Assembly (NCBI RefSeq): GCF_013408555.1
Contig: NZ_JACBZN010000001.1
Span: 1,550,001-1,614,000, forward strand
DNA length: 64,000 nt
Direction: 5' to 3'
From: Aeromicrobium tamlense
Lineage (GTDB): Bacteria; Actinomycetota; Actinomycetes; Propionibacteriales; Nocardioidaceae
Shown here: in pieces, positions 4,349 to 59,228 of the stretch
How the letters are laid out: each line of letters begins with the position of its first letter
Numbering within the stretch: position 1 is the stretch's first letter
Program-made: the position numbers and the translations under genes
The notes under the pieces: model-generated
The model's database searches: none
The model's input: the letters and a program-made list of their open reading frames with translations, nothing else
What the model was told of the DNA's origin: nothing

Positions 4349-4349
4349 T

Positions 4350-5822: not shown

Positions 5823-5968
5823 CGCTGCCAATGAAAGTCGTGCTCTACCCCCCACCGATGGATGAATACAGACTGTCACCCGACCCACCCGGGAGACGCT
5901 GGTCACACCGGAGGGCGTACCTCCCGGACGGACGAGCCGTCACCCCACGTAGCTATGAAGGAGCACCC

Positions 5969-6766: not shown

Positions 6767-6792
6767 GAGCCCGTCGAGCCAAGGGAGCAGCC

Positions 6793-8887: not shown

Positions 8888-8917
8888 TGCGATACCCCCA
8901 AGAGAACGGAACACCTC

Positions 8918-9754: not shown

Positions 9755-9838
9755 TCCAGCGAACCACCAGCACACACACCCGCGTCCAGACACCGTCCCG
9801 TCTGCCACGCCATCCACCCTGCAACGAAAGGCTCCATC

Positions 9839-11953: not shown

Positions 11954-12648
11954 GCGACGTCACGATCGCCCGCCAGGACTCGATCGTCACCTTGACATTC
12001 GATCGTCCGGAGAAGCTCAACGCCCTCACCTTCTCGATGTACGCGACGGTCCAGGCGGAGATCGAGCGCGTGGCCCACGATTCGACGGTCGCGGCGATCT
12101 TCCTCCGCGGAGCAGGCCGATCGTTCTCGGCTGGATGGGACCGCAACGAGGCGGTGCCCGATCTCGCCGAGGCGCTGCGCCGGACGAACGCCTGCCGTTG
12201 GGCGATCTGGGACTCCCCTCACCCGGTCGTGGCGGTCACGCAGGGGCATTGCCTGGGCGGTGCATTCGAGCTGGTGCTGCCGGCGGATCTCGTCATCAGC
12301 ACGGACGACTGCCTTTTCGGAATCCCCGAGGTGGCCGACGGCGTCGCCGCGGGGTTCAACATGCTCCCATGGCTCACCAATCACAAGAAGGCCAAGGCGT
12401 GCATGCTCACCGCCGGGATGTTCGGCGGACGGGCCGCCCTGGAGTGGGACCTCGTCACGCACCTGACCTCGGCAGAGCACTTGGAGGACACCGTGACGTC
12501 CGTCGGGGAACGCCTGCGCCACGTCGGCTCGAGCACGCTGGCGGCTATTAAGCAGGACACGAACCAGGTCTATGAGTCCCTTGGCATGCGCGAGCAGATC
12601 GACCGGAGCGTCGCTCGGCATGACGGTGTGAGGTTCCTCGATGAGTAG
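11950..12648 (+). CDS. Enoyl-CoA hydratase/isomerase (crotonase family)
   Basis: 232 aa, shorter than the usual 255-270. Oxyanion-hole segments RSFSAGWD and GHCLGGAFELVLPADLVIS are present, and both glutamates equivalent to the catalytic pair of rat enoyl-CoA hydratase are kept (Glu in GGAFE and in GIPEVADG). The region after PEV lacks the common GGTQRL loop (VAAGFNMLPWL instead), so the substrate or reaction may differ from plain hydration. It overlaps both neighbours, as expected for one operon. Confidence 0.88.
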   Translation: MSDVTIARQDSIVTLTFDRPEKLNALTFSMYATVQAEIERVAHDSTVAAIFLRGAGRSFSAGWDRNEAVPDLAEALRRTNACRWAIWDSPHPVVAVTQGHCLGGAFELVLPADLVISTDDCLFGIPEVADGVAAGFNMLPWLTNHKKAKACMLTAGMFGGRAALEWDLVTHLTSAEHLEDTVTSVGERLRHVGSSTLAAIKQDTNQVYESLGMREQIDRSVARHDGVRFLDE

Positions 12649-13138
12649 CCTCGGTGGGGCTCCGGGACGTCCCCGCCCGCTGCCACGGCGGATCCCGTTC
12701 GCCGCAATTTCAGACCTCGTCGGTCAGCAGTTCACCAGCCTCCCCTTCTCGGTCAGCGCCGACGAAGGCGCGTCCTTCATGGAACTGACCTACTTCACGC
12801 CGCTGGACAGCACGCAATGGTCGAGTCAGGTCGCTGGAGACATTCTCGAGGGATTCCACACTCTCGCTCTGGTGGACCCGTTACTCAACGAGCACATCCG
12901 CTTCGACCGCTCGGAGTGTTACGTCCTCAACTACGGGGTCGACCGGGTCCGTTTCCCCAGCCAGCTTCGCGCCGGGCAGGAGCTCGTCTTCACGATGGCC
13001 GTGACCGACGTGACGCCGCGAGCCGAAGGAGTCGTCCTGACCCTCGAGTTCGACATCACCGCGCAGGGATCCGACAAGCCGGGCGTCGTCGGTTCGTGGC
13101 GCCTGTTCATTGCACCCCACAAGGGCGCGAATCCGTGA
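12641..13138 (+). CDS. MaoC/NodN-like hotdog-fold hydratase
   Basis: 165 aa. DILEGFHTLALVDPLLNEHI followed by VLNYGVDRVRFPSQLRAGQE is the pattern of the NodN/MaoC-like hydratases, which share a hotdog fold and act on enoyl-CoA. The usual catalytic Asp-His dyad near the N-terminus is not clear (SADEGASFMELTYFTPLDST in its place), so catalytic competence is uncertain. Overlaps the crotonase gene by 8 bp. It probably works on the same CoA thioester as its neighbours. Confidence 0.7.
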   Translation: MSSLGGAPGRPRPLPRRIPFAAISDLVGQQFTSLPFSVSADEGASFMELTYFTPLDSTQWSSQVAGDILEGFHTLALVDPLLNEHIRFDRSECYVLNYGVDRVRFPSQLRAGQELVFTMAVTDVTPRAEGVVLTLEFDITAQGSDKPGVVGSWRLFIAPHKGANP

Positions 13139-13179
13139 CCATCTCCGTCCAGTTCCCCTTCTCTTCGCAGGAGCCTCCC

Positions 13180-14595
<1,416 letters not shown>

Positions 14596-17800: not shown

Positions 17801-18400
17801 GGCCACCGCACTTTCGCCGTTGCTCCGCCCGACCCGCGTGGCCGCGACCTCCCGCTCCAAGAGCGCCAGTACCTCGCTGACGGCGGCGTGGTGCTCCTCG
17901 ACGATCCGGGCCTGCGTTCCGGCGTCCGCGACTCCCCATAGGACCGACACCGACTTCGGCACTGAGAACGTGAAGTCGAATCCCGCCACCGCTCGGCTCT
18001 CGCCATGAGCTTGCTCCTCGGACTCGATGACGCCGAGCGCGGCGGACCGCTGGTCCGGGCTGAGCGCGGCGCTCAGGGTCGCAGCACGACTGGCCACTCG
18101 GTCGCGGATCGAGGCGTACTGCGGGAATGCAAGTCCGAGCTTCTCTCCAGTGCGCGGATCTCGTCCGGCACCAAGCAGCAACGCGAGTTGCTCCTCCGTG
18201 ACCGGCTCTCCTGGAGACAGTGTCCCCTCGCTCAGGGCCTTGAGTCCCGCTCCCATCCAACGGCCTGGCGGTGTGCCTGCCTCGGCGTAGTAGCGGGTCA
18301 TCGGCGTCGACAACGCGCGGTTGCCGTCGGCGGCCACGACGCTCTTGAGCAGGTATTTGTATCCGTCCCCGGCGGACATGACCTTCATCGATACCGTCAT
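14861..18400 (-). CDS. MobF-family conjugative relaxase-helicase (TrwC/TraA type)
   Basis: 1179 aa. N-terminal TrwC relaxase domain (about 1-330): candidate catalytic tyrosines in GDGYKYLL (14, 16), the FDFTFSVPKSVSVLWG segment, and the metal-binding histidines H214, H225 and H227 (DPQLHTHVVISN). A superfamily I helicase follows: Walker A VGPAGGGKTTAM (Lys about 560), VIIDEATL as motif II, VLLVGDWAQLQ as motif III, and GYAVTAHRAQGLTVD and YVSMTRGRERN near the end. It nicks at oriT, stays attached to the strand and unwinds it for transfer. It is transcribed away from the Tad operon; the 348-bp divergent gap may hold oriT. Confidence 0.95.
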   Translation of the reverse strand: MTVSMKVMSAGDGYKYLLKSVVAADGNRALSTPMTRYYAEAGTPPGRWMGAGLKALSEGTLSPGEPVTEEQLALLLGAGRDPRTGEKLGLAFPQYASIRDRVASRAATLSAALSPDQRSAALGVIESEEQAHGESRAVAGFDFTFSVPKSVSVLWGVADAGTQARIVEEHHAAVSEVLALLEREVAATRVGRSNGESAVAQVEVVGVAAAAFDHWDSRVGDPQLHTHVVISNKVMTKSDGKWRSLDSRPLHAAVVALSEHYNAVLADRLSRNLGLEWEQRQRGQDRTPAWELALVPDLLVKHFSGRARAIELEKDRLIEDYVAQHGRRPSRTTVIRLRAHATLASRPDKQVRSLADLTEEWRARAGRVLGRDGSAWTRGLLRATRPQPALRADDISLDVISSTAAAVVHTVSEKRSTWRYWNLWAEAARQTMGWRFASAQDREDVTAMIVADAKGQSLALTPAEFAATPAIFTRADGTSQFRPRHGVVYSSVELLGAEDRLLARANDRTAPTLSLGESSRYSLQDESAVSRTERGGDVLRNIASSGRRLDLLVGPAGGGKTTAMRTLRLDWQAQHGRGSVIGLAPSATAAQVLADDLGIACENTAKWLYDHDHGGTELQRGQLVIIDEATLAGTLTLDRITALAAEAGAKVLLVGDWAQLQSVDAGGAFNLLAQNRDDVPELSDVHRFTHEWEKRASLELRRGSDQAIDTYIRHGRVREGATGDMNDAAYLAWRADVRAGRESVLVAESASSVIDLNTRARAERILDGDTSAGRDVLLADGTRASAGDIVITRTNDRRLGQGSGSWVRNGDRWRVASVGRDGSLDVERPSPPGRSAATLPATYVAEHVELGYAVTAHRAQGLTVDTAHVVVSRTTTKESLYVSMTRGRERNAAYVALDCPDDTHAADAGDASARAVMLGVLRHSGAELSAHQVIEAEQRRWSSIAQVAAEYETLAAVAQHDRWVDMLRRSGLADEQVSAIIRAESFGPLSAELRRAEAAGMVLAERLPRIVNRRSLQDAEDIGAVLIDRLAREARVTQPEVPRDEVRFIGGLIPAADGAMPGEIADALAQLQAAIEAQARALAHAALAHGEPWTRRLGPPPVGRQALDRWMHELRIVAAYRDRYPEEVGGRDRTAADVHQRRDRAHAAEASERARSLATSCRPEATGPLSAVRLDAAHP

Positions 18401-21005: not shown

Positions 21006-21773
21006 ATGGCCGTCATCACGCTCGCTTCCGCGTCCGGGTCGCCCGGCGTGACGACGACCTGCCTGGGATTGGCCTTGTGCTGGCCGCGCCCGGTGTTGCT
21101 GGTGGAGGCCGACCCCACCGGCGGGTCCAGCCTGCTGGCCGGCTATTTCAGGGGCACCCGCGAATACCGCGCGGGCGTCGTCGAGTTGGCACTCACCGGC
21201 ACAGATCTCACCGACACCCTCGCCGAGGTTGCCGAGCCGATCAACGACACGCCCGTCTCGTACGTCGCCGGCACCAGATCTCACACCCAAGCCGCCGCGC
21301 TGCGGGACCTCTGGGAGCCACTGTCGGTCGTCCTCGGAGACCTCGAGGCGACCGGCCAGGACGTCATCATCGACGCCGGACGGCTCGGACTGACCGGCTC
21401 CCCCACTCCTTTGCTCGACAACGCCGACCTCGTCCTGATCGCGACCAGGACTTCACTGCCCGCACTGTCGGCCACCAGGTCGTGGGGCGACGCCGTCGCC
21501 CGGTCGCTCGTCCATTGGCGCGAACCTCAACTGCTCCTCGTCGGCGAGGGCGATCCCTACCGCGCCCGCGAGGTCACCGCGGCAGTGAAACTCCCGGTCC
21601 TCGCAACGCTCGCCGACGACCCGGAGTCCGCGGCAGTCCTCCACCGTGGGGCACCGCCATCGCCCAAGTTCGACTCCGCTCCCTTGGTGCGCAGCTTGAA
21701 CGCAGCGGTCGCCGCGGTCCATGCGGTCGTCCGCGCCCAGCGTCTCGACCTCGTCGAAGGAGCAGCGCGATGA
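21006..21773 (+). CDS. CpaE/MinD-like P-loop protein with degenerate Walker A
   Basis: 255 aa. The deviant Walker region reads ASGSPGVTTT (about 8-17), with Thr where the P-loop Lys should be. LVEADPTGGSSLLAG follows (residues about 32-46), and DVIIDAGRLG stands at the Walker B place. The family positions Tad machinery (CpaE). Loss of the Lys suggests nucleotide binding without normal hydrolysis, or a purely structural role. Overlaps TadA by 4 bp (ATGA). Confidence 0.75.
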   Translation: MAVITLASASGSPGVTTTCLGLALCWPRPVLLVEADPTGGSSLLAGYFRGTREYRAGVVELALTGTDLTDTLAEVAEPINDTPVSYVAGTRSHTQAAALRDLWEPLSVVLGDLEATGQDVIIDAGRLGLTGSPTPLLDNADLVLIATRTSLPALSATRSWGDAVARSLVHWREPQLLLVGEGDPYRAREVTAAVKLPVLATLADDPESAAVLHRGAPPSPKFDSAPLVRSLNAAVAAVHAVVRAQRLDLVEGAAR

Positions 21774-23248
21774 CGACTGAACCCACCGACAGTCTGGCCG
21801 CCGAGCTTCTCGACTTGCCCCTGTTCGCCACCCCACTGCCCCTGCTGAGTGTGCCCGCCGGGCCAAACGGCCACCAGACCCTGCCACTGCCCACCTCCGA
21901 CGCGGCGAGCGCCGTCCCCGTCGACTGGCCGCTCGTCGCGACGTTGCGGGCCCAAGCATCCGATCGACTCAGCCAGGCCGTGGCGTCCGACCGCGGCCGG
22001 CTGCCTCAGACAGCGCAGCAGGAACTCGGCCGAGCGATCGTGCTGGACCTGATCGAATCGACGCTGACCGATCGAGTCAACGACGGCGCCGCGACGATGA
22101 CCCCGATCGAGCAGGACGCGACAGCCCGCGCCGTGTTCGACTCGCTGTTCAGACTCGGCCGGCTGCAGCCGCTGGTGGACGACGACCGGGTCGAGAACAT
22201 CATCATCACCGGTCACGACCGGGTCCTGCTCGAGCTCACCGATGGCAGTCTCCTCGAGGGTCCACCGGTGGCGGACTCCGATGAGGAGTTGATCGATTTC
22301 CTCGTATTCCTCGCGTCTCGGAGCGAGGTCAACGCACGCGGATTCTCCGAAGCTCAGCCGCGTCTGCACCTGCGCCTCGACGGCGGCTCGCGACTCGCCG
22401 CGGCGGCGTGGGTGACACCGCGACCCTCGGTGGTGATCCGCCGGCATCGGCTGATGCAGATCACCTTGGACGAGCTCGTTGGCCGGGACATGCTCACGCC
22501 CGTGGCGGCGTCGTTCCTTCGTGCCGCGGTCCGGGCACGCAAGAGCATCGTCGTCTCCGGCGGCCAAGGCGCCGGCAAGACCACCCTGGTCCGCGCGCTG
22601 TGCGCCGAGATCGACCCGCTGGAAGCTATCGGCACCTTCGAGACCGAGTACGAGCTGCACCTGCACGAGCTCCCCGACCGGCACCGCATCGTGCACCCCT
22701 GGGAAGCCCGACCCGGGTCCGGCGAGCGAGGCCTGGACGGACGCCAAGCCGGTGAGTTCACTCTCGACGAGGCCCTGGTGGATTCGTTCCGGTTCAACCT
22801 GCAGCGCCAGATCGTCGGCGAGGTCCGGGGCCGCGAGATCTGGGCCATGATCAAGGCGATGGAGTCCGGCACCGGCTCGATCTCCACCACCCACGCGTCC
22901 GACGCCATCGCTGCGCTGCGCAAGCTCGTGACCTGCGCGATGGAAGCCGGCTCGCACGTCACTCACGACCTGGCCACCAGCAAACTCGCCGCCACCATCG
23001 ACCTCGTCGTCCATCTGGACATGACGACCGAGACCGTCGACGGCGCCGCCAGGCGACGGCGCCGGGTGGCCGAGATCATCGCCGTCGACCCCGGCGAACG
23101 CGAAACCGGCTACGCCGCCACCCACGTCTTCGCCCCCGGCACGGACGGTGTCGCCGCCCCATCCGTCCTACCCGACGGGTATCGGGCACTGGCTGCCCGC
23201 GGGTTCGATCTCGCAACTTACCTGGCGCAGCAGGAGGCGCGGCCATGA
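21770..23248 (+). CDS. tadA: TadA/CpaF-type secretion ATPase
   Basis: 492 aa hexameric ATPase that powers Tad pilus assembly on the inner membrane face. N-terminal helical part, then FRLGRLQPLVDDDRVENIII, Walker A GGQGAGKTTLV (about 262-272), the Asp box FETEYELHL, Walker B-region VGEVRGREIWAMIKAME and GTGSISTTHA, the His box. All are typical of the PilT/VirB11-like TadA group. It also resembles VirB11, so a shared role in conjugation is possible. Overlaps CpaE-like and TadB genes by 4 bp each. Confidence 0.93.
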   Translation: MTTEPTDSLAAELLDLPLFATPLPLLSVPAGPNGHQTLPLPTSDAASAVPVDWPLVATLRAQASDRLSQAVASDRGRLPQTAQQELGRAIVLDLIESTLTDRVNDGAATMTPIEQDATARAVFDSLFRLGRLQPLVDDDRVENIIITGHDRVLLELTDGSLLEGPPVADSDEELIDFLVFLASRSEVNARGFSEAQPRLHLRLDGGSRLAAAAWVTPRPSVVIRRHRLMQITLDELVGRDMLTPVAASFLRAAVRARKSIVVSGGQGAGKTTLVRALCAEIDPLEAIGTFETEYELHLHELPDRHRIVHPWEARPGSGERGLDGRQAGEFTLDEALVDSFRFNLQRQIVGEVRGREIWAMIKAMESGTGSISTTHASDAIAALRKLVTCAMEAGSHVTHDLATSKLAATIDLVVHLDMTTETVDGAARRRRRVAEIIAVDPGERETGYAATHVFAPGTDGVAAPSVLPDGYRALAARGFDLATYLAQQEARP

Positions 23249-24093
23249 TCGTGCTCATCCCCGCTCTCGCGGGTGCCCTCGTCGTCTCTGGCGTGATGGG
23301 CCTGGTCATCGGCCTACAGCCGAGCGAGCACGTGGACCGGCCGGCCCGACCACATCGAACCCCGCGACTGTCCAAACAGACACGGCGACTGCTGCTCGCG
23401 GGCGTTGCCGCCGGCGTTTTGGCGTTCGCGATCACCGGGTGGGTGCTGGCGCTGGTCGCTACGCCGGTCGCATTCGTCGGTCTCCCGGTCCTGCTCTCGT
23501 CGTCATCGGCGCAGCAGCGGATCGTGCGGCTCGAGGCGATGGAGGAATGGACCCGCACCCTCGCCGGTGTGCTGACCGTGGGCGTCGGACTTGAGCAGGC
23601 GCTGGTCACGTCACTGCGCTCGACCCCGGCAGCGATCGAGCCGGAGGTCACCCGTCTGGTGTCACGGCTGCGGGCCCGGTGGAAGACCGAGGACGCCCTG
23701 CGCGCGTTCGCCGACGAGCTCGACGACGCCACCGGTGACCTTGTCGCCGCGAACCTCATCCTCGGGGCGCAACGCCGCGGCGCCGGGCTGGCCAGCGTGC
23801 TGGAAGGGCTCGCCGAGTCCGTCGCCGCCGACGTGCGCGCACGCCGCCAGATCGAAGCCGACCGGGCCAAACCCCGGGCGACCGCGCGCTGGGTCACCCT
23901 CATCAGCGTCGGGGTGCTGGTCGTCCTGGCGATCTCCGGCACCTACGTCGAACCGTACCGATCCCCGCTCGGGCAGGTCATCCTCGTCCTGCTGCTCACC
24001 GCCTACGTCGCCACCCTCGTGTGGACGAAACGCATGGCGATCGGCCGACCGATGCCCCGCTTCCTGGCCACCACCGACGGAGTCGCGCCATGA
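23245..24093 (+). CDS. tadB: TadB-like inner-membrane platform protein
   Basis: 282 aa. TM helices near the N-terminus (two, up to about residue 85) and near the C-terminus (about 215-260), around a cytoplasmic GspF/T2SSF domain (EEWTRTLAGVLTVGVGLEQA, then SVLEGLAESVAADVRARRQI). It forms the membrane platform with TadC above the TadA ATPase. Coupled to both neighbours by 4-bp overlaps. Confidence 0.88.
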   Translation: MIVLIPALAGALVVSGVMGLVIGLQPSEHVDRPARPHRTPRLSKQTRRLLLAGVAAGVLAFAITGWVLALVATPVAFVGLPVLLSSSSAQQRIVRLEAMEEWTRTLAGVLTVGVGLEQALVTSLRSTPAAIEPEVTRLVSRLRARWKTEDALRAFADELDDATGDLVAANLILGAQRRGAGLASVLEGLAESVAADVRARRQIEADRAKPRATARWVTLISVGVLVVLAISGTYVEPYRSPLGQVILVLLLTAYVATLVWTKRMAIGRPMPRFLATTDGVAP

Positions 24094-24995
24094 CCACCGG
24101 ACTGCAGCTGATGCTCGCCGCTGGGATGCTGATCAGCCTCGGACTCGTGCTGCTGTCCGTGCGGTTGCTGCCGGCCGAACCCGATCTGGTCGACGCGCTC
24201 AACCGGCTCTCACCGCAACGACGGATCAACGCCGGCGACGACACAGGCGGAGCACCTCGCGGCAAGGAACGCGTCGGCGTGTGGGCGATCAAGCACCTGC
24301 CCCCGGTGCTGTGGGTCCGGACCCCGATCCGTGAGCTCGCGTTGCTGCGGATCCCGGTCGCCCGGTTCTACGGCGACAAGCTCGCCTTCGCCGGCCTCGG
24401 TCTGCTTATCGCGCCACTGCTGGCGTTGCTGTTCGACCTGCTCGGGCTCGGCCTGCCGTTCGTGATCCCTGCGCTCGGGTCCGTGGCCCTGGCGGGCGTG
24501 ATGTTCTTCCTGCCGAACTACAACGCCGTCGACGACGCCCGCAAGGCCCGCATCGAGTTCTCTCGCGCCCTGGGCGCCTACATCGACCTAGTCGCCCTCG
24601 AACGCAACAACGGCGCCGGGGTGCGCCAGGCGATGGAAGCGGCCGCGAACGTCGGCGACTCGTGGGTGTTTCGCCGCCTCAGCGAAGAACTCACCCGATC
24701 GCGGTGGTCCGGGCAGCCCCCGTGGGACGCCCTGCACGCGCTGGCCGACGAACTCGGGCTCCCCGAGCTGGACGACTTCGCCGACATCATGCGCCTGTCC
24801 GGAGAGGAGGGCGCCTCCGTCTACACGAACCTGCGCGCCCGCTCCGCGGCCATGCGCACCGCCATGCTCGGCGACGAGATCGCCGAAGCCAACGCCATCG
24901 GCGAGCGCATGACCATCCCCGGCTCCCTGCTCGGCGTCATCTTCATGGCCCTGCTCGTCACCCCAGCCCTGCTGCGGATGTTCATCAACACCTGA
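24090..24995 (+). CDS. tadC: TadC-like inner-membrane platform protein
   Basis: 301 aa with TM helices at the N-terminus, in the middle (about 105-150, two) and at the C-terminus (SLLGVIFMALLVTPALLRMF). The T2SSF-like domain includes RIEFSRALGAYIDLVALERN and FADIMRLSGEEGASVYTNLR. Partner of TadB. Start ATG 24090 overlaps the TadB stop. Confidence 0.87.
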   Translation: MTTGLQLMLAAGMLISLGLVLLSVRLLPAEPDLVDALNRLSPQRRINAGDDTGGAPRGKERVGVWAIKHLPPVLWVRTPIRELALLRIPVARFYGDKLAFAGLGLLIAPLLALLFDLLGLGLPFVIPALGSVALAGVMFFLPNYNAVDDARKARIEFSRALGAYIDLVALERNNGAGVRQAMEAAANVGDSWVFRRLSEELTRSRWSGQPPWDALHALADELGLPELDDFADIMRLSGEEGASVYTNLRARSAAMRTAMLGDEIAEANAIGERMTIPGSLLGVIFMALLVTPALLRMFINT

Positions 24996-25019
24996 CCCTC
25001 AACGGAAGGACCACTCATC

Positions 25020-25202
25020 ATGAGTCGACTCACCAGCGTGCTGCTCATGCTTCAACTCGCCCTGGACCACGATCGCCGGCGCGACCGCGGATCGGTCACC
25101 ACCGAGCACGTCCTGTGGGCGGTCGCCGTGATCGCGATCGTCGCCATCGCCGTCGCCGCCATCCGGGCCTATGTCCAGTCACAAGCCGGACAGATCAACT
25201 GA
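25020..25202 (+). CDS. Flp-type pilin-like small protein
   Basis: 60 aa. A charged N-terminus, then the type III prepilin motif RG-SVTTE (cleavage after Gly, Glu at +5) and a single hydrophobic helix (VLWAVAVIAIVAIAVAAIRA). This matches Flp/DUF4244-type pilins. It is probably the major pilus subunit. No prepilin peptidase (TadV/CpaA) gene is in the operon, so a chromosomal peptidase would be needed. Overlaps the next gene by 32 bp. Confidence 0.82.
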   Translation: MSRLTSVLLMLQLALDHDRRRDRGSVTTEHVLWAVAVIAIVAIAVAAIRAYVQSQAGQIN

Positions 25203-25578
25203 CCGGCCCGCCGAGCGCGGCTCGGTCACGGTCGAACTGATCATCCTGCTGCCCGCCCTGTTCGCGGTGATGTTCCTGGGCATGCAGGCCGCCCTGTTCC
25301 ACCACGCCCGCGCCGTGGCGATCGCCGCTGCCCAAGAAGGTGCCCATGCCGCCGCCAGCGAGACCGGCCGCGAATCCGACGGCGTCACCGCCGCCACCGC
25401 GTTCATCGCCGACGCCGGCGGTCGCGACGTCCTCACCTCGTCGCGGGCCACCGCCACCCGCACAGCCACCACGGTCTCGGTGACCGTCCGCGGCCGAAGC
25501 CTCAGCGTCATCCCCGGCTGGTCGCCCACCGTCACCCAGTCGGCATCGCTGCCCGTCGAACGGCTGACCGCGCCATGA
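25171..25578 (+). CDS. TadE-like minor pseudopilin
   Basis: 135 aa. The motif RG-SVTVELIILLPALF (cleavage after Gly, Glu at +5) and one hydrophobic helix are typical of TadE. The rest is a small secreted domain rich in Ala, Thr and Val. ATG 25171 lies inside the pilin gene; a later start near the RG-S motif would give almost no leader, so this one is preferred. Coupled to the next TadE-like gene by a 4-bp overlap. Confidence 0.82.
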   Translation: MSSHKPDRSTDRPAERGSVTVELIILLPALFAVMFLGMQAALFHHARAVAIAAAQEGAHAAASETGRESDGVTAATAFIADAGGRDVLTSSRATATRTATTVSVTVRGRSLSVIPGWSPTVTQSASLPVERLTAP

Positions 25579-44555: not shown

Positions 44556-44951
44556 ATGATCGACGACCCTGACGCCCAGGCGGAAGCCGCACGCCGCGCC
44601 CTGCACGCGCTCGCTGCGGCAACCGAACGCATGAACGACCGGCACGAGATCGGTGCCGTACTCGCGTCGCTGAGTGCTGCCACCGCATCGCTCAGCGAGT
44701 CGCTCCACCAACTCGCGACCGCCCGCGACCACAGCCGAGACCGGGAGGGCCGGCCGCGGTCGCGGAACAGCCAGCTTTCGCAGTACCCGATGTCGTGGGA
44801 GCTTCACCGCGCCGGCGAGATCCTGCACCAGGTGTCGACCCTGCTTCAACACGCTCGAGATGCCGCCGCCCACGACGCCCTGCCGCAACCGCAGGTCACG
44901 CAGTCCGTCTCGAGTCCCTCACATTCGAACCATTCGAATGTCGCACTGTGA
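44556..44951 (+). CDS. Hypothetical ICE protein upstream of the VirB4-like ATPase
   Basis: 131 aa, soluble and helical (ARRALHALAAATERMNDRHE; VLASLSAATASLSESLHQLA). Heptad-like Ala/Leu spacing suggests a coiled coil. TGGAG lies upstream of ATG 44556. It overlaps the next gene by 4 bp (GTGA), so it belongs to the transfer operon. Function unknown. Confidence 0.65.
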   Translation: MIDDPDAQAEAARRALHALAAATERMNDRHEIGAVLASLSAATASLSESLHQLATARDHSRDREGRPRSRNSQLSQYPMSWELHRAGEILHQVSTLLQHARDAAAHDALPQPQVTQSVSSPSHSNHSNVAL

Positions 44952-46486
44952 AGCGGCGGACCGACGACCGGATCCTCAGCACCGTGCTGGTCTCCCCACC
45001 GCGCGAGCGGCGAGGCAGACGCCACGCCAGAAAGGACGCGGCGAAGAGTCTCATCGCGGGCGCGATCGCCGAACAGAAAGCGCTCGGGCGCGCCTACGCG
45101 CGGGAACTACAGGCCGAGCAGAACGCAGCAGAGTTCCTCCCCCGGTCCGGCGAGTCCGGACCGGCGGCGTTGCGGACGCCCGGACGGTTGCGGTTGCCTC
45201 GCCACCAAGACACCTCGGCGACCCTGGCCGGCGCCTACCCGTTCCTGGCCGAAGGCGGGACCGGCAGCGAGGGTGTGTTTGTCGGCCAGGACCTCTACAG
45301 CGGAAGCTCCTTCGTCTACGACCCGTGGGTCCTGTATTCGCGCGGCATGATCACCGCCCCGAACGTGGTGATCGCCGGCATCGTCGGTGCCGGAAAGTCA
45401 TCCCTGGCCAAGAGCCTCTACACCCGATCCATCCCGTTTGGCCGCCGCGTCTACGTGCCCGGCGACCCCAAGGGCGAGCACACGGCCGTCGCCGAAGCCG
45501 TCGGCGGCAAAGCGATCGCGCTCGGACACGGCATGGCGACCCGACTCAACCCCCTCGACGAGGGACACCGTCCCGCAGACCTCGACGACACCGAGTGGAG
45601 AGCGCAACTCGCGGCGCGGCGCCGCGATCTACTCGGAGCGCTTGCGGAGACCGTGCTCGAGCGCCGCCTCACGCCACTGGAGCACACCGCCCTCGACGTC
45701 GCCCTAGAGGACACCGTCCGATCATCGGACGTGCCGGTGCTGCCGATGGTCGTCGACCGCCTGCTGTCCCCGACCGCACGAGCCGACCCGGCCAGCCGGT
45801 TGACCGAGGACGGTCGCTTGGCCGGTCACGCCCTGCGGAGGCTGGTCGCCGGGGACCTGGCCGGGCTGTTCGATGGGCCATCCACGGTCCGATTCGATCC
45901 GACCCTGCCGATGGTGTCGCTCGACCTGTCGCGGGTGTCGGAGAACGCAACCCTGATCTCGGTGCTGATGACCTGCGCGTCGGCGTGGATGGAGTCCGCC
46001 CTGCTCGACCCGACGGGAGGGCAACGCTGGGTCATCTACGACGAGGCGTGGCGGCTGATGGCGCACCCGGCGCTGCTGCGCCGTATGGATGCTCACTGGC
46101 GTCTCGCGCGGCACTACGGGATCGCGAACATGCTGATCTTCCACAAGCTGTCGGACCTAGACAACGTGGGTGACCAAGGCTCGGCGATGCGCGCCCTGGC
46201 CTCGAGCCTGCTGGCCAACGCGGAGACCCGCATCGTCTACCGCCAGGAGTCCGACCAGCTGGGGTCCGCCGCGGCCGCGCTGGGACTGACCGGCACCGAG
46301 GAGGCGCTGCTGCCGACCCTCGGGACAGGGCAAGGGCTGTGGCGGATCAAGCACCGCTCGTTCGTCGTGCAGCACCAGCTGCATCCAGCCGAGCTCGCGC
46401 TGTTCGACACCGCAGGCCGGATGCATGCGCAGCGACCTGAGCACCTGGAGAACGAGGACTCGACCCGAGGCGATGGTGACCGATGA
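44948..46486 (+). CDS. VirB4/TraC-like conjugation ATPase
   Basis: 512 aa. Walker A NVVIAGIVGAGKSSLAKSL (about 139-157), VYVPGDPKGEHTAVAEA, Walker B RWVIYDEAWRLM (about 357-368) and IANMLIFHKLSDLDNVGDQG are typical of VirB4-type motors. It lacks the long N-terminal half of VirB4, which matches the SCO6880 protein upstream. GTG start overlaps the previous stop; the stop overlaps the ArdC-like gene. It energises assembly or substrate transfer at the membrane. Confidence 0.88.
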   Translation: MKRRTDDRILSTVLVSPPRERRGRRHARKDAAKSLIAGAIAEQKALGRAYARELQAEQNAAEFLPRSGESGPAALRTPGRLRLPRHQDTSATLAGAYPFLAEGGTGSEGVFVGQDLYSGSSFVYDPWVLYSRGMITAPNVVIAGIVGAGKSSLAKSLYTRSIPFGRRVYVPGDPKGEHTAVAEAVGGKAIALGHGMATRLNPLDEGHRPADLDDTEWRAQLAARRRDLLGALAETVLERRLTPLEHTALDVALEDTVRSSDVPVLPMVVDRLLSPTARADPASRLTEDGRLAGHALRRLVAGDLAGLFDGPSTVRFDPTLPMVSLDLSRVSENATLISVLMTCASAWMESALLDPTGGQRWVIYDEAWRLMAHPALLRRMDAHWRLARHYGIANMLIFHKLSDLDNVGDQGSAMRALASSLLANAETRIVYRQESDQLGSAAAALGLTGTEEALLPTLGTGQGLWRIKHRSFVVQHQLHPAELALFDTAGRMHAQRPEHLENEDSTRGDGDR

Positions 46487-47538: not shown

Positions 47539-48041
47539 GCATCCACGTGTCCCCGCCCTACCGCCGCGCCGTGCGGCACAACTTGGATGTGCCGGTGGTC
47601 CTGCCCCAGGTCAACGTCATCGTCGATGAGCACGGCGGACTGAGCGTCCAAGTCGACGCCGAGCCACACCGCGCAGGCGAGAATCTCCAGCGAGCAGACC
47701 TCCAGCGCGTCGTCACCAACATCGCCGCCGACCTCGGCTCCGCAGTGCGCGTCGACGTGCGCGAGCACGATGGGACCGTGTTCACCGACATCATCACGCC
47801 ACCGACAAATCCGTCGGCGGCCGCTGAGAAGCAATCCGCGCCGACGTCACCCGCCGGCGTGCTCACCCGGGTGGGGTTCGCGCCGCACCAACCCGTGGCT
47901 GTCGCGGTCGTCGTCGCGCATCAGGCCGCCGACGACTCCGGCACCGTGAGACTGGCCCTTCCCCCGTCACTCGTGGCGACCTACGGCGACAAGATCGTCG
48001 TGGTACCCGAGACGGCGGCCACCGCCGAGGGTGCAGCGTGA
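47535..48041 (+). CDS. Conserved hypothetical protein between ArdC-like and coupling protein
   Basis: 168 aa, soluble. Beta-rich first half (VVLPQVNVIVDEHGGLSVQV; GSAVRVDVREHDGTVFTDII), a flexible middle and a second small domain (VAVAVVVAHQAADDSGTVRL). No known family. Overlaps of 4 bp with both neighbours place it firmly in the transfer operon. Confidence 0.7.
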   Translation: MSIHVSPPYRRAVRHNLDVPVVLPQVNVIVDEHGGLSVQVDAEPHRAGENLQRADLQRVVTNIAADLGSAVRVDVREHDGTVFTDIITPPTNPSAAAEKQSAPTSPAGVLTRVGFAPHQPVAVAVVVAHQAADDSGTVRLALPPSLVATYGDKIVVVPETAATAEGAA

Positions 48042-49801
48042 ATACACGAGGTCGCGGCATCGACGACACGCTCGTGAACCTCGGCCTGATGACCGTCGCC
48101 GTGCTCGGCCTGATCTGTGCCGTACTGCGTCTGGCGGGCGGCGTGGCCGCGTGGTTCACCGGTGCCGAGTCCCCCACGGTGGGATGGGCGGGCGCCGCTG
48201 GCGTGCTGACCGATCCGCGCCACCCCGCAACCGTCCTCGGCTCGGAGCGACTCTCCCCGTGGGCGTACTGGTCCGTGGTCGCCGCGATGGGCGCCATGGT
48301 GACCGCCTGCGCGCTGCTGACGTGGACCCGCGTCAACGCCTGGCGCCACCGGTCACGGCACGATCTGCGGCGCCTCGAGGGAGTCGCCACCAGCAGCGAC
48401 GTGAAGACAGCGGCCTCCCGCCGGGCCCTCCTGGCACGAGCCCACACACTGCGCCCCTCCCTGAGCAAGCCAGCGGCCGCCTCCGTCGGCTACCGACTCG
48501 GCCGATCCCGCGGACACGACGTGTGGGCCTCAGTGGAGGACTCGATCCTGGTCCTCGGCCCACCCCGGTCAGGCAAGGGACTCCACGTGGTGATCAACAC
48601 GATCTTGGATGCTCCCGGGGCAGTCATCACGACCGCCACCCGGCCCGACAACGTCGCGGCGACCCTCATGACACGTCAGGAACGGGGACCGGTCGCGATC
48701 TTCGATCCACAACGCCTCGCCGAAGGTCTCCCGGCGGGGCTGCGTTGGTCTCCGGTTCGTGGGTGCGAGGACCCGCTGACCGCGATGATCCGCGCCGCCG
48801 GGCTCGCCTCGGCGACTGGTCTGGCGACCGGCGGCGTGGAGTCCGGCGGCTTCTGGGAGGGCAAGACCCGCACCGCTCTCCAGGCGTTGCTGCACGCCGC
48901 CGCGCTCGACGACCGCACCCCGCGCGAACTGTTCACCTGGACGTTGTCACCGTCGTCGGCGTCCGACGCGGTCGCGATCCTCGCCAGCCACTCCGATGCC
49001 GCAGCCGGCTGGGCCGACTCGCTCGAATCGATGATCCACGCCGACCCGCGCACCCGCGACTCGATCTGGATGGGCGTGTCCCTCGCACTGTCGTGTCTGG
49101 CCGATCCCCGCGTCCTGGACGCGGTCACGCCAGGCTCGGGCGAGCACTTCGATCCCACCGAGTTCCTCACCCACGACGGAACCCTGTACCTGTTGGCCAC
49201 CGGAGCCGGCGCCGGCGCGTCCTGGTCACTCGTCGCGGCGTTCATCGAGGACCTCGTCGAGACCGCTCGACATCTCGCCGCTGCGTCCCCCGGCGCGCGG
49301 CTCGACCCTCCGCTCCTGCTGGCCTTGGACGAGATCGGCAACCTGTCGCCCCTGCCCTCGCTGCCAGTGCTGATGGCCGAAGGCGGCGGCACCGGCATCA
49401 CCACCCTCCCGGTGCTGCAGTCCCAGTCTCAAGCACGGGACAAGTGGGGCGACCACGCCGCGGGCGCGATCTGGGACGCGTCGATCGTCAAGGTCATCCT
49501 CGGCGGCAGCTCCTCGGCAGCTGACCTGCGCGACCTCTCCTCGCTGATCGGCGAACGCGACGAGAACTCGGACACCATCTCGGTCGGCGACTACGGTTCG
49601 CGGTCCATGCAGCGGTCCATCCGGCGCGTGCCGGTACTGCCACCAGAGACCATCAGGACACTGCCATTCGGCACCGCGCTCCTGCTCCTGCGCAGCGCGC
49701 CCCCACTGGTCACCGAGCTCCGGCCGTGGACCAGCCGGCCCGACGCGGACCGACTCACCCAGCAACGCGCGAGCATCGAAGCAACGCTGCGCCGCCGCTG
49801 A
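48038..49801 (+). CDS. VirD4/TraG-type coupling protein (T4CP)
   Basis: 587 aa. Two TM helices at the N-terminus (LGLMTVAVLGLICAVLRLAG; YWSVVAAMGAMVTACALLTW), then an AAA+ motor with Walker A VLGPPRSGKGLHVV (about 171-184), Walker B LLLALDEIGNLSPL (about 426) and TGITTLPVLQSQSQARDKWG, the segment after Walker B in TraG/TraD. It recruits the relaxase-DNA complex to the channel. GTG start overlaps the previous stop. Followed by a convergent small gene 6 bp away. Confidence 0.92.
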   Translation: MNTRGRGIDDTLVNLGLMTVAVLGLICAVLRLAGGVAAWFTGAESPTVGWAGAAGVLTDPRHPATVLGSERLSPWAYWSVVAAMGAMVTACALLTWTRVNAWRHRSRHDLRRLEGVATSSDVKTAASRRALLARAHTLRPSLSKPAAASVGYRLGRSRGHDVWASVEDSILVLGPPRSGKGLHVVINTILDAPGAVITTATRPDNVAATLMTRQERGPVAIFDPQRLAEGLPAGLRWSPVRGCEDPLTAMIRAAGLASATGLATGGVESGGFWEGKTRTALQALLHAAALDDRTPRELFTWTLSPSSASDAVAILASHSDAAAGWADSLESMIHADPRTRDSIWMGVSLALSCLADPRVLDAVTPGSGEHFDPTEFLTHDGTLYLLATGAGAGASWSLVAAFIEDLVETARHLAAASPGARLDPPLLLALDEIGNLSPLPSLPVLMAEGGGTGITTLPVLQSQSQARDKWGDHAAGAIWDASIVKVILGGSSSAADLRDLSSLIGERDENSDTISVGDYGSRSMQRSIRRVPVLPPETIRTLPFGTALLLLRSAPPLVTELRPWTSRPDADRLTQQRASIEATLRRR

Positions 49802-54951: not shown

Positions 54952-55935
54952 TTAAGCCCCCGGCCCGTAGATCTTGACCGCGCCAAGTGCACCCGGCGGA
55001 TTCGTGGCGTAGTCCAGCAGCCTGCGATACCCGTGGTCGCTGACAGCTGGCGGGAACAGGACGAACGGACTCGTCATCACACCTGAGCCTAGCCAGTCGA
55101 GCGCGTCCATTAGAGGGATCTCGATGTAAGCCACAACGCGGTGCGTGAGGGCCCCATCGTCGCCTGGCAAGAGCTTCGCGGGTGCGACAAGAAGTCCGTG
55201 CTGCGCGTGCGGGCGCAAATACACGGATGGCACGGCGTAACGAAGGTCGACGATCCTTGATTCCTCGCCAATCGAGTACCCAGGGATGTTGGTCGGTCGG
55301 AGTCGGCCAGTATCAAGTACCGCCACGTAAGCCATCGGCGTCGGAAAGTCGGTCCCTCTATCCTCAGACGGCCCTTTTGCAGCTCGCTCAGCGTCAGGAG
55401 ATCGCCGCGCGTGAAATGCATGACGCACGCCAGCGGTTTCCTCCGTGTGACACGCGAACCACAGTGCGATCCAGATGTTGTCGACTACGTCGAGCCAGCG
55501 TGTGCGGATCCCGTAGTGCTGCAGGAGCGGCTCAACGACGGCCCTGAAAGTGCTACCCACTAGCGGGCCTGCAGGGCCGCGGGCGATCTGTTCGGCACAA
55601 CGATGGGCAGTCCCGAATGGGAAGGGCCCCTCCCCACACCGACAATCGGCAGCGGCGAGTGACGTGATGTACTCACCGATAGCGGCAGCCAACGCCGCGC
55701 GCTCCGCTTCAGAGGCCGGCTTGCCGTCGTGCCTCCTTAGGCCCGACGCATACATAGTCGGGAACATCCGCGCTTGTCCTCGATAAAGGACTTGGCCACC
55801 ATCAGCCGTGAACTTCAGCCAGCCGATCAGTTGAACAAGGGCATTTGGATCGCTGACGCGGAAGACGCGGTGTCCACTCTCGACTCGCTCTGAGACGCCA
55901 GAAATCGAGACGGCACCGCGCTTCACCAATGTCAC
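54952..55935 (-). CDS. FRG-domain protein
   Basis: 327 aa. The FRG domain is marked by VLYRGQARMFPTMYASGLRR and LLQHYGIRTRWLDVVDNIWI, then ALWFACH. FRG domains are of unknown chemistry but recur in phage-defence islands and toxin-like proteins. The C-terminal part includes HAQHGLLVAPAKLLP. GTG 55935 is chosen because TACGTT lies exactly six bases upstream (leaderless pattern); an ATG at 56004 would add an implausible leader. It is convergent with the two-gene cassette. Confidence 0.8.
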   Translation of the reverse strand: MTLVKRGAVSISGVSERVESGHRVFRVSDPNALVQLIGWLKFTADGGQVLYRGQARMFPTMYASGLRRHDGKPASEAERAALAAAIGEYITSLAAADCRCGEGPFPFGTAHRCAEQIARGPAGPLVGSTFRAVVEPLLQHYGIRTRWLDVVDNIWIALWFACHTEETAGVRHAFHARRSPDAERAAKGPSEDRGTDFPTPMAYVAVLDTGRLRPTNIPGYSIGEESRIVDLRYAVPSVYLRPHAQHGLLVAPAKLLPGDDGALTHRVVAYIEIPLMDALDWLGSGVMTSPFVLFPPAVSDHGYRRLLDYATNPPGALGAVKIYGPGA

Positions 55936-56189
55936 GTCACGAACGTATGCGCAAATGACGCATGAGAACGTTGAAAGGCCGAAAGCGAGTCTGAGTGCAT
56001 TCAAGGCGAAACGGGCGGCCGGATGGCTCTTTGGTCGCGCCCCACATCACCGGACAGGAGGTTGATAGGCCTGAGTTCTGGGCCGCCAAGATTCGCCTTC
56101 TGAATCCGCTCCTCTCGGCCGGCGACAGGTCGACGAACTCTCTGGGCTCCTGGTTTGGTCAGGCCCCGTCTCGTTCATCGATCGCCAAG

Positions 56190-56798: not shown

Positions 56799-57015
56799 GA
56801 AGTAAGGCTAGGTCGCGTTAGGCCGGACGTCCGGAAAGCCGTGAGATCTGAGCATGAATTCGAGGGCTGGATTCATTTGCTTTCTTCGCTGCTCGCAAGT
56901 CCCACGCGTTGAAGCGCAACACCTACGTGTCAGGACTCGTGACGCCAGAACAGGTCACGACGCATCGTCGGTGCCGGACACAGACCCAAGCCGACCACAC
57001 AGGTGGGAGCAGCGA

Positions 57016-57213
57016 ATGGGAACAACGAAACGACTGCCGGTCTACGTCAGCCTGGAGGAAACCGCAGACATGCTCTCTGTGTCCACGAGGACGATCCGCC
57101 GGCGCATCAGTGACGGGACGATCCCGGCGTATCACTGCGGCAAACGTCACATCAGGATCAGGCTGGACGATCTTGAGAACGCTCTCGAACGCATCCCGGC
57201 GGTGGGCTGGTGA
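57016..57213 (+). CDS. xis: Excisionase-family helix-turn-helix protein (orphan)
   Basis: 65 aa: VYVSLEETADMLSVSTRTIR then RRISDGTIPAYHCGKRHIRI is the MerR-like winged helix of excisionases. It is followed after about 100 bp not by an integrase but by a tRNA-Val 3'-end scar. It probably belonged to a former integrase that targeted tRNA-Val. It may still regulate other genes of the element. Confidence 0.85.
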   Translation: MGTTKRLPVYVSLEETADMLSVSTRTIRRRISDGTIPAYHCGKRHIRIRLDDLENALERIPAVGW

Positions 57214-57244
57214 GGTCGTTCTGCGGACTTCTTTCCGGTTCCTT

Positions 57245-57263
57245 GAACTACGTGGGAACTACG
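57245..57263. repeat. GAACTACG direct repeat with 11-bp period
   Basis: GAACTACG at 57245-57252 and 57256-57263, one helical turn apart, just before the terminator-like structure and the tRNA-Val scar. The spacing equals that of the 11-bp tandem repeat beside attR, so both may be integrase arm-type sites. Confidence 0.45.
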
Positions 57264-57264
57264 C

Positions 57265-57313
57265 CGAGAAAAGCGAAAACCCTGAAAGCGTTGCAATTCC
57301 AGGATTTTTCTCG
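57265..57313 (-). terminator. Imperfect hairpin downstream of the tRNA-Val scar
   Basis: CGAGAAAA at 57265-57272 pairs with TTTTCTCG at 57306-57313, with an inner weaker AAACCCTG/CAGGATTT pairing. It lies directly downstream of the tRNA-Val 3' end in its reading direction, as expected for a tRNA terminator carried on an att fragment. Confidence 0.45.
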
Positions 57314-57315
57314 GG

Positions 57316-57339
57316 TGGGCGATACTGGGTTCGAACCAG
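57316..57339 (-). other. Scar of a tRNA-Val 3' end (second att site)
   Basis: TGGGCGATACTGGGTTCGAA (57316-57335) followed by CCAG is, on the minus strand, the T-loop, 3' T-stem and acceptor strand of bacterial tRNA-Val. Homology stops at the first base pair of the T-stem, and no anticodon or D arm follows to the right. This is what a tRNA-Val-specific element leaves as attP or attL. No intact tRNA-Val is in the window. Confidence 0.7.
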
Positions 57340-57460
57340 AGCGGCCAGCATCGAGTTTCCGCGGTCAGGACTTGCTCACAACACCTACAGCACAGCCCGC
57401 CGTGCGCCAGTCCTCTGTCGGATGGCCATGACGGGCACGGGGACTGAAGGGGTGATTGGG

Positions 57461-57730
57461 ATGACGCGAGCTGTCGACACGACGACTATGACTGTCGGTG
57501 ACCACCTGCTCACAATCGCGGAGGCCGCGGCGTACCTGAACGTTCCGCCGCGCTGGGTCTCGGACGCCGTCCGGGCGCGCCGCATCCGCTGTACACGGAT
57601 CGGCAAACACGTTCGGATCCGGCCGGAGCATTTGGAGGAGCTGATCATCGCTGGAGAGCAGCCCGTGCTCGAACCGGCGACGAGCGTTGATTCGCTCAGG
57701 CGTCCTTCGAGCGCGCGATCGCGACTGTGA
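57461..57730 (+). CDS. xis: Excisionase-family helix-turn-helix protein (paired with integrase)
   Basis: 89 aa. LLTIAEAAAYLNVPPRWVSD then AVRARRIRCTRIGKHVRIRP is the excisionase-type winged helix. ATG 57461 has GAAGGGG upstream; in-frame ATGs at 57422 and 57428 are less likely. It ends 5 bp from the integrase stop (convergent). It probably directs excision at the tRNA-Leu att sites. Confidence 0.87.
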   Translation: MTRAVDTTTMTVGDHLLTIAEAAAYLNVPPRWVSDAVRARRIRCTRIGKHVRIRPEHLEELIIAGEQPVLEPATSVDSLRRPSSARSRL

Positions 57731-57735
57731 TCCGA

Positions 57736-59004
57736 CTACCCGTCGCCCCGGACCAATCGCATCACCGGCCGGATGCGCCCGCCGCTCAAAGCGGTCTCGA
57801 TGATTTCCGAGATCAGCTCGTCGCCTGCGGGCAGCAGGTGCCCGTAGGTGTCGATGGTGGTGGTGATCGATTCATGGCCCAGCCGAGCTTGGATGTGCGG
57901 CAGTGGTGCGCCGCCGGCGATGAGCCAGGCGACGTGGGTGTGGCGCAGGTCGTGGAAGCGGAACGGCGCGATCCCGGAAGCTTGAAGATCGCGCTGGAGT
58001 GGCTGCCACACGCGCTCGTAGAAGTCGCTGTTGTGGATCGCCAGTCCGGTAGGAGAGAGGAACAGGACGTCGTCCGCCGGTCGACCCTCAACCAAGGGAC
58101 GCAGCAGGTCCACGAGCGCTGGTGCGATCGTGACGGTGCGGCGTGACTTCGGGGTCTTGGGGTTGCCGAGGTGATGTCCGCGCATGGCGTGCTTGGGCCG
58201 CACGAGCTTCTTGAGCCATCCGGGCGTCTCGGTTTCGCCGTCCTCGCCGTCCCGCTTCCATGCCTTGTTGACCCGGACGGTGCCGTGCTCGAGGTCGATG
58301 TCGCTGCACCACAAAGCGGTGACCTCCCCGAATCGCAGGCCGGTGCCGACGGTGAGGGTCAGCAGGTCCTGGGCGTCGGCGGCGAGCTGGGCTGCGATGC
58401 GGAACTCGTCCTCGGTCAGGAAGCGCAGGTCGGCCTGGGACTGGCGGATCCGCGACCGCTTGGGCGCGGTGCGCGCGCACGGGTTCACGTCGACCTGGCC
58501 TTCCTCCTTGGCGTAGGTGAAGATGCCGAAGAGCAGACCGTGGTAGTTCGCCTTGGTCTTGATGGAGCGGTCCCAATCGATCAGCCAGGCCTTGATGTCC
58601 TTCTCGCTGATGGCGTCGACGCGCCGGTGAAAGATCCGCGCGCCGCGGACGTCGGTGCGCTCTAGGACCTTCACCTGCGACAGGTAGCGCTTGCGCTGCC
58701 CCGGCGACAGATCGACGATCTGGCGGACGTACTCCTCGGCCACCTCGGCGAAGTACGGCGGCGGCACGTAGTGGTCAGCGGGCGATCGGACGAACCCCTC
58801 GCCCTTGACCCAGCCATCGGGCCAGCGGCTGCCGGCTGCTTCGACCATCTTCTTGAAGCCTTCGGCGCGCGCGAGGTTTTGCGCGTCGGTGCCGGCGCTG
58901 AAGGTTTCGTCTTGACGGACGCCGCTGCGGCCTCCACCCATCCGCCATTCGACGCGCACCGAGAGTCCGCCATCGGTCCTGCGTCGCTTCTGAATCCATG
59001 CCAT
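57736..59004 (-). CDS. int: Tyrosine integrase of the ICE
   Basis: 422 aa. N-terminal arm-binding domain (WIQKRRRTDGGLSVRVEWRM), a SAM-like core-binding domain (about 90-190), and a catalytic domain with Arg in TVGTGLRFGEVTALW, HxLR in FHDLRHTHVAWLIAGG, His in ARLGHESITTT and the nucleophile Tyr in IDTYGHL. ATG 59004 has GAGGAG 8-13 bases upstream. It lies 136 bp from the att core in the tRNA-Leu gene, the usual place for a self-integrating element. Confidence 0.95.
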   Translation of the reverse strand: MAWIQKRRRTDGGLSVRVEWRMGGGRSGVRQDETFSAGTDAQNLARAEGFKKMVEAAGSRWPDGWVKGEGFVRSPADHYVPPPYFAEVAEEYVRQIVDLSPGQRKRYLSQVKVLERTDVRGARIFHRRVDAISEKDIKAWLIDWDRSIKTKANYHGLLFGIFTYAKEEGQVDVNPCARTAPKRSRIRQSQADLRFLTEDEFRIAAQLAADAQDLLTLTVGTGLRFGEVTALWCSDIDLEHGTVRVNKAWKRDGEDGETETPGWLKKLVRPKHAMRGHHLGNPKTPKSRRTVTIAPALVDLLRPLVEGRPADDVLFLSPTGLAIHNSDFYERVWQPLQRDLQASGIAPFRFHDLRHTHVAWLIAGGAPLPHIQARLGHESITTTIDTYGHLLPAGDELISEIIETALSGGRIRPVMRLVRGDG

Positions 59005-59060
59005 CTGGGTGCTCCTCTGACCCTCGTTAGGTGTCATCGGTGCGCTCCGCGGGAGCCCAT

Positions 59061-59082
59061 GTGCCGCCATGGTGCCGCCATG
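59061..59082. repeat. Tandem 11-bp repeat GTGCCGCCATG x2 by attR
   Basis: Two exact adjacent copies (59061-59071, 59072-59082) between the integrase start and the att core. They are probably arm-type binding sites for the integrase. Confidence 0.6.
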
Positions 59083-59139: not shown

Positions 59140-59164
59140 GTGTGTCCGAGGGGGGACTTGAACC
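59140..59164 (-). other. attR within tRNA-Leu
   Basis: 25-bp copy matching attL (4350-4374) except at 59148. It covers the 3' T-arm and acceptor strand of the tRNA plus three bases downstream, so integration restores a functional tRNA. Confidence 0.8.
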
Positions 59165-59228
59165 CCCATGCCCGTAACCGGGCACTAGCACCTCAAGCTA
59201 GCGCGTCTACCAATTCCGCCACCCGGAC
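59143..59228 (-). tRNA. tRNA-Leu(GAG)
   Basis: 86 nt cloverleaf on the minus strand. Acceptor GTCCGGG pairs with CTCGGAC (one G-U). The D arm contains GGTAGACGC, the anticodon stem CTAGC/GCTAG encloses TTGAGGT (anticodon GAG), a long variable arm TGCCCGG-TTA-CGGGCA marks class II, and the T-arm has GGTTCAAGTCC. CCA is not encoded. Its 3' end is the ICE target. Confidence 0.95.

Follow-up and report, generated by a model that had tools for sequence, protein, structure and literature searches.

We analysed a 64,000-nucleotide stretch of DNA from Aeromicrobium tamlense (the window; bases 1,550,001–1,614,000 of a single-contig chromosome of 3.37 Mb), which contains a 54.8-kb integrative and conjugative element (ICE, window positions 4350–59164) with direct repeats of the 3′ end of tRNA-Leu(GAG) at both borders. 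A short segment near the right end of this element, positions 57016–57339, is very probably a remnant, namely one half of an integration module whose ICE formerly resided in tRNA-Val. The right end reads, in order, an excisionase gene (xis1), two repeats, a hairpin, the 3′ end of tRNA-Val, a second excisionase gene (xis2), a tyrosine integrase gene (int) and tRNA-Leu.

A tRNA-Val scar beside the present integration module

xis1 (57016–57213, plus strand) encodes a protein of 65 aa with an intact reading frame and is assigned to the former tRNA-Val module, whereas xis2 (57461–57730, plus strand) belongs to the present tRNA-Leu module. Both had been called excisionases in an initial annotation of this DNA, and both scored above the cut-offs of Pfam HTH_17 and NCBIfam TIGR01764 (43.8 bits for xis1 and 44.8 for xis2 in the latter "excise" model, curated cut-off 28.8). 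The 11-bp-spaced repeats reported downstream of xis1 were also present: the segment TTGAACTACGTGGGAACTACG (57243–57263, plus strand) contains two copies of GAACTACG, starting at 57245 and 57256, which are probable arm-type integrase sites of the old attachment site (attP). The sole additional copy of GAACTACG on either strand of the window is at 19273.

The repeats are followed by a predicted, element-borne tRNA-Val terminator hairpin (57264–57314, minus strand; arms 57264–57272 and 57306–57314). A terminator-like hairpin had been noted here and is indeed present, but its own folding barely surpassed that of shuffled sequences (z −1.16; 29 of 200 shuffles were as good). Its assignment as a tRNA-Val terminator is supported by likeness to tRNA-Val flanks in relatives, not by folding. 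The old attachment core (57310–57339, minus strand) corresponds to the 3′ end of tRNA-Val(CAC) and occurs as one unsplit copy inside the element. The match to tRNA-Val, first given as 24 bp, is real and longer, with 30 of 30 bases identical to the host's own tRNA-Val(CAC), including 4 bases beyond the gene. With up to 3 mismatches, a 23-base piece of the core was found once in the window and in none of 100 shuffled windows; with up to 2 mismatches, the whole genome contained three sites, namely the scar, tRNA-Val(CAC) and tRNA-Val(GAC) (1 mismatch). Arm repeats of the tRNA-Val module are restricted in the window to the xis side of the core, those of the integrase side being gone. No match was detected in the plasmids and phages searched with positions 56900–57460.

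As initially described, a second excisionase and a tRNA-Leu integrase come directly after the tRNA-Val end: xis2, int (57736–59070, minus strand; Pfam PF00589) and tRNA-Leu(GAG) (59142–59228, minus strand), the current integration site. Homologues of int (E ≤ 1e-60) were detected in 26 of 294 genomes of the family, including the window's own. Among 19 other int loci, tRNA-Leu was present on the 2.4–4.3-kb piece in 14 and absent in five, and a homologue of xis2 was clear in 11, partial in one and absent in seven. In such relatives xis2 is convergent with int beside tRNA-Leu; because xis2-int homologues recur at this gene, the pair can be considered an established convergent module. The tRNA-side attachment copy, attR, lies at 59140–59164 (minus strand), and the distal copy, attL, at 4350–4374 (minus strand; identical to the tRNA-side copy at 24 of 25 bases). 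At the left end of the element, positions 4347–4540 showed 81% identity to A. flavum DNA adjoining an int homologue; the far arm of the Leu attachment site (attP-Leu) may have arrived with the module.

Relatives integrated at tRNA-Val

Positions 56950–57460 were compared by BLAST with the 294 family genomes. Beside many short tRNA stretches and xis1-like genes alone, matches that included the flank of the core were found in Aeromicrobium flavum (G121) and Aeromicrobium piscarium (G106), both of the same genus as the host (72%, from xis1 to the core), in G077 (85%, from the end of xis1 to the core), and in G056 and G037. The hairpin flank and core together were 83–92% identical over 66–133 bp in G056, G077, G037 and the second of two Val elements of A. 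flavum, and 80% identical in the first A. flavum element and in A. piscarium. In the two named species an xis1 orthologue (78% of 64 aa) is located approximately 100 bp from a complete tRNA-Val(GAC). It is very hard to credit a chance tRNA-like stretch next to an unrelated HTH protein, for which we found no point in favour: the 30 exact bases, the similar flanks and the location of xis1 next to tRNA-Val in relatives refute it. Neither of the two conditions named in the initial annotation as refuting its reading was encountered: the tRNA-Val of the host itself carries the match, and related elements are inserted at tRNA-Val.

In A. flavum, the backbone to the left of the xis1 orthologue is collinear with the window (identities of 79% for the coupling protein, 84% for a VirB11-like protein, 63% for the relaxase and 36–86% for other matched proteins). 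This relative supports the original proposal that an ICE once targeting tRNA-Val lost its integrase, acquired a new module and changed its target. The far end of the A. flavum element is marked by a second core copy of 25 bp, which lies 72.7 kb from tRNA-Val(GAC), with a 410-aa tyrosine integrase (intVal) immediately inside it; both A. flavum Val integrases passed Pfam PF00589. Since xis1 and intVal are located at opposite ends of the element, they should lie on opposite sides of attP in the circle. The ancestral circle would have been xis1, attP(Val), intVal, and the lost integrase would have been to the right of the core, in the place that xis2-int occupies today. In this respect the initial annotation has to be corrected. 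It had anticipated relatives of the conjugation backbone at tRNA-Val with the missing genes in place of the 57214–57265 gap; the collinear A. flavum backbone is such a relative, but the corresponding gap holds no integrase in the tRNA-Val relatives, in which the integrase lies across the attachment core from xis1. An excisionase gene with no integrase beside it is thus the normal state at that end.

Arm-type integrase sites typically appear as matching repeats to either side of a core. TTGAACTACGTGGGAACTACG was identical at 21 of 21 positions on the xis side in G077, a genome of the same genus, which has a similar 52-kb layout at tRNA-Val(CAC) with only the xis1 end recognisable, and was also identical to the last two of four repeats on the integrase side of the second A. 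flavum Val element. The first A. flavum element had CCCCACG repeats on both sides of its core, and GTGGACACG was common to Nocardioides furvisabuli and Nocardioides psychrotolerans (xis side) and G264 (integrase side). These patterns suggest that the repeats flanking Val cores act as arm-type sites, and the GAACTACG and GTGCCGCCATG repeats are candidate integrase arm sites.

Absence of the cognate integrase

The first excisionase had been described as lacking an integrase, and our searches agree. No Val-type integrase was detected in the window (E ≤ 1e-3), the sole signal being a weak likeness of the present int. At E ≤ 1e-20, a search of 12 genomes gave matches in 10, and none in the window's genome or in G136, the closest relative of the element. 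Because no cognate integrase was found in the window or, at this threshold, in the genome, the tRNA-Val module in the window is regarded as a relic. It is the absence of intVal from the opposite end of the element and from the genome, not from the gap behind xis1, that establishes its loss. Retention of intVal at the left end of the window was considered and rejected; a LysR regulator, dehydrogenases and an ABC transporter are found there instead. Distant Val integrases (28–49%) were present in G237.

Stacked integration modules in related elements

We examined the right ends of 42 elements, comprising the window, G136, A. flavum and 39 fetched regions; the latter were the top-scoring coupling-protein matches among 81 positive of 341 genomes and are not a random sample. 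Nine ended at tRNA-Met only, five carried both Met and Pro modules, four were of Val type (L120 by its left end only), two had xis1 with a Pro module, and two were of Ala type (one with no integrase seen). Leu, the window and Pro only accounted for one each, as did a probable Met tandem and a Met core of unassigned end; the 15 others, a part of them on short contigs, were not classified.

The closest parallel to the window was found in N. furvisabuli (L124), in which xis1, repeats, a terminator and a 22/24 Val core are followed by int and xis, with tRNA-Pro 1.7 kb from the core; this genome also holds a Val element of the usual kind, whose coupling protein is very similar. G237 (L128), likewise of the Nocardioides group, had the same layout, with an IS21-like insertion interrupting the Val core. 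Another type of stack involved L113, L122, L126, L127 and L144, also from the Nocardioides group, in which int, xis and a 24/24 tRNA-Met end are followed by xis, int and tRNA-Pro. All 20 int and xis genes of these five two-module elements were open, and the integrase and HTH_17 models matched all four of L113, the one element scanned. In all 8 of 8 stacked cases the new module was directly outside the old core. This position explains why Met-type integrases, which lie inside their core, were kept and Val-type integrases, which lie outside, were lost. To judge from these sequences, the target switch is not unique to the window and happened more than once. The Met core of L133 (G160) was not counted as a stack but set aside as a probable tandem insertion at tRNA-Met, because L132, on the same contig, ends at that gene.

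In L124 and L128 the Pro module joins the Val core at almost identical positions, and dS was 0.65 for their tRNA-Pro integrases and 0.09 for xis1. The two elements may have gained Pro modules separately, or may have swapped pieces later. What appears to be the reverse case, with a Leu passenger and a Pro boundary, was observed in A. flavum: a decayed region (L070 6956–8368 / L069 2202–3400) begins at tRNA-Pro with an intPro fragment, and an open homologue of the window int adjoins an unsplit tRNA-Leu core (24/24).

The order xis1, core, xis2, int would also be produced by a nested insertion, in which a tRNA-Val ICE entered a smaller tRNA-Leu island at a Val-like site next to xis2, and the left core and intVal were deleted later; the tandem tRNA-Leu cores in the host show that islands accrete there. 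We regard this course as quite improbable. It needs a second Val core, and apart from the scar the sole matches in the genome (up to 2 mismatches) are the two tRNA genes. The stacked relatives show the same pattern: in G111, G254 and G291, which have both ends on one contig, tRNA-Pro cores flank 105–119 kb and the old Met core (up to 1 mismatch) occurs once between them, and G237 had no second Val core (up to 3 mismatches) between its Pro cores.

Polarity of the switch

A tree of the 42 coupling proteins, rooted at the midpoint, grouped the window with G136, which is integrated at tRNA-Leu (support 100/98), and placed A. flavum, a Val element, next (96/94). The elements with xis1 and a Val core at tRNA-Pro clustered with Val elements (100/100). 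Among the two-module elements, L113 was paired with a Met-only element, L122 and L127 with another, and L126 with two more; L144 formed a long branch of unsure placement. The simplest course is that the switch from Val to Leu preceded the split of the window and G136, and that the scar was kept in the window and lost in G136.

G136 is the closest relative in backbone (coupling protein 85%, VirB11-like protein 88%, relaxase 65%) and also in module, with an int homologue, 85–89% identical, at tRNA-Leu(GAG). On the contig of this tRNA-Leu element, beyond the relaxase, we also observed two exact tRNA-Pro 3′ ends (L148 12905–13313 and L149 944–967), one of which is followed by an excisionase-like gene.

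Several observations weigh against a former residence of this ICE in tRNA-Val. In G136, neither xis1 nor a Val core separates the backbone from xis2, and no Val core was detected in its element at up to 5 mismatches (L072 and the start of L073). The scar was therefore either lost in G136 or gained in the window after the split, and the Val piece may be a late acquisition of the window; the intervening 4.5 kb cannot be aligned between the two and do not decide between loss and gain. The GAACTACG repeats match G077 and the second A. flavum element rather than the Val relative of the backbone, which has CCCCACG repeats, and a different Val lineage may have been the source of the Val half. To the right of the Val core, positions 57340–57500 showed no likeness to any right arm. 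Moreover, xis1-type genes are not tied to tRNA-Val: for 25 such loci, the tRNA within 1.5 kb was Val in 10, Ser in two and the N. furvisabuli scar in one, with no tRNA in 12. Among 39 named xis1-like loci, tRNA-Val was found within about 130 bases behind xis1 in nine and about 200 bases behind a partial match in two; one had tRNA-Ser, one a 22/24 scar, one a 20/24 scar (on a short contig), and 25 none of these. Side arguments from the stacked relatives are weakened as well: N. furvisabuli encodes a Val integrase elsewhere (G230:C3), and the xis1 genes of L124 and L128, with 4 synonymous differences and 1 non-synonymous difference over 60 codons, show 5 and 3 over the full 77-codon frame.

Some of these points would fit an ICE that had always been of the tRNA-Leu type and received the piece with xis1 and the Val core by recombination from a tRNA-Val element. 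The closest relative is Leu-only, the arm repeats point to a different Val lineage, and the xis2-int identity between the window and G136 (84.5% of DNA) is like that of the coupling protein (85%), which makes the Leu module about as old as the split. However, A. flavum, which comes next in relatedness, has a Val element whose xis1 orthologue occupies the same backbone end, and the equivalent elements at tRNA-Pro fall among Val elements. This history is therefore rather unlikely in our estimate, and a former tRNA-Val residence remains the preferred reading.

A proposed course of the switch

The events may have been as follows. The ancestral circle would have contained xis1, arm sites, the terminator, the Val core, further arm sites and intVal. 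A complete tRNA-Leu module (xis2, int and attP-Leu) would then have joined immediately to the right of the Val core, with loss of the right arm and intVal; joining and loss were perhaps one event, presumably brought about by recombination. The element would now enter and leave tRNA-Leu by means of int and xis2, both probably active, and the Val core would be an unsplit, one-armed relic carried as passenger DNA beside an xis1 whose frame is still intact and which probably has no present role.

It is also conceivable, though unlikely, that xis1 acts with the current integrase or as a regulator of the element, and that the Val core is a second attP still in use. The intact frame of xis1 and its divergence from the A. 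flavum orthologue (dN 0.14, dS 0.93 over 60 codons) would agree with this, as would the retention of two intact modules in five relatives. However, this dN/dS pools selection before and after the loss of intVal, two periods that are inseparable, and the xis1 differences between L124 and L128 are too few to judge. In addition, attP-Val has no arm repeats on the integrase side, and no intVal is encoded.

As for the family, we suggest only tentatively that these ICEs change address by stacking modules at one spot, outside the old core. The intermediates with Met and Pro modules might be working two-address ICEs that use whichever tRNA gene is free or present in the recipient, and the window might represent a more advanced state, with only half of one address left.

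Other features of the element

The predicted gene content agrees with that of a T4SS-type ICE of Actinobacteria in including a site-specific integrase at one end, flanking att repeats, a MOBF/TrwC relaxase and a VirD4-type coupling protein. The TrwC-type relaxase is encoded at 14861–18400 (minus strand; Pfam PF08751, E 9.8e-89), a VirB4-like ATPase at 44795–46486 (plus strand; best VirB4-like model 4.2e-16, below NCBIfam cut-offs) and the TraG/VirD4-type coupling protein used for the tree at 48038–49801 (plus strand; Pfam PF12696/PF02534 above cut-off). Further backbone genes between the tRNA-Leu repeats encode Tad/VirB11-like ATPases. Within the conjugation region, a Tad-type pilus cluster (21077–25578; a CpaF/VirB11-like ATPase, two T2SSF proteins and a TadE protein) was observed, which was also present in A. 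flavum and G136. An FRG-domain protein (54952–56004) is cargo to the left of xis1.

Catabolic-looking genes flank the attL core on both sides: CoA transferase, luciferase-like monooxygenase and flavin reductase at 4–4014, and ABC transporter, CoA ligase, enoyl-CoA hydratase and aldehyde dehydrogenase at 4884–14592. The tRNA-Leu core occurs in four same-strand copies, at chromosome positions 1516204, 1538087, 1554350 and 1609140, and the 54.8-kb element is the last of three tandem segments at tRNA-Leu (approximately 22, 16 and 55 kb). Because no int or xis was found in 3-kb stretches around the three left cores, the two other segments may be cis-mobilised islands.

Relation to known systems and implications

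Exchange of integration modules among ICEs is known; what is new here is that a scar records an exchange, that this recurs at a single position, and that elements with two modules exist. In Aeromicrobium and Nocardioides, the tRNA-Val elements that have xis at one end and int at the other share the xis1 family, terminator, core and repeats with the window but sit in tRNA-Val and retain intVal. In the literature searched, which covered few subscription journals, we found no work on Aeromicrobium ICEs or on relic attP halves in ICEs, and no half-module relic beside a new module described for ICEs of this group. Work of Burrus from 2002 on ICESt1 is cited in PMC4701971, on streptococcal ICEs. PMC11706625 and PMC11476347 proved irrelevant to the question.

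For the streptococcal ICEs, PMC4701971 treats exchange of integration modules with a change of target as established: as here, closely related conjugation modules are linked to unrelated integrases with different targets, and the exchange is inferred from this incongruence. The window differs in its host and backbone, and in that half of the former module remains and marks the junction. Module exchange is also treated in PMC3218068, where the Frankia AICE Fcci3390 likewise has two integrases of different subfamilies in one element. However, Fcci3390 has two att pairs (attL/attR and attL2/attR2), whereas the old core of the window is single and unsplit, and AICEs are described there with an FtsK/SpoIIIE-type transfer protein in place of the relaxase and VirD4-type coupling protein found here. 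ICEHpa1 and ICEPmu1 of Pasteurellaceae also have two integrases each, which in ICEHpa1, located at tRNA-Leu, are tyrosine integrases; the comparison with the window covers integrases and attachment cores, and the passages of PMC7438473 consulted describe no second core.

Swaps of integrase and target in ICEs have usually been inferred from mismatched gene trees. In the elements described here intermediate states are visible: some carry a single module, some a tandem of two that are both intact, and some a new module next to an old one that is half eroded. The tree provides some polarity. The route of target switching thereby becomes testable, and former addresses become readable from att scars. 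For annotation, a copy of a tRNA 3′ end within an element is not necessarily a boundary of that element.
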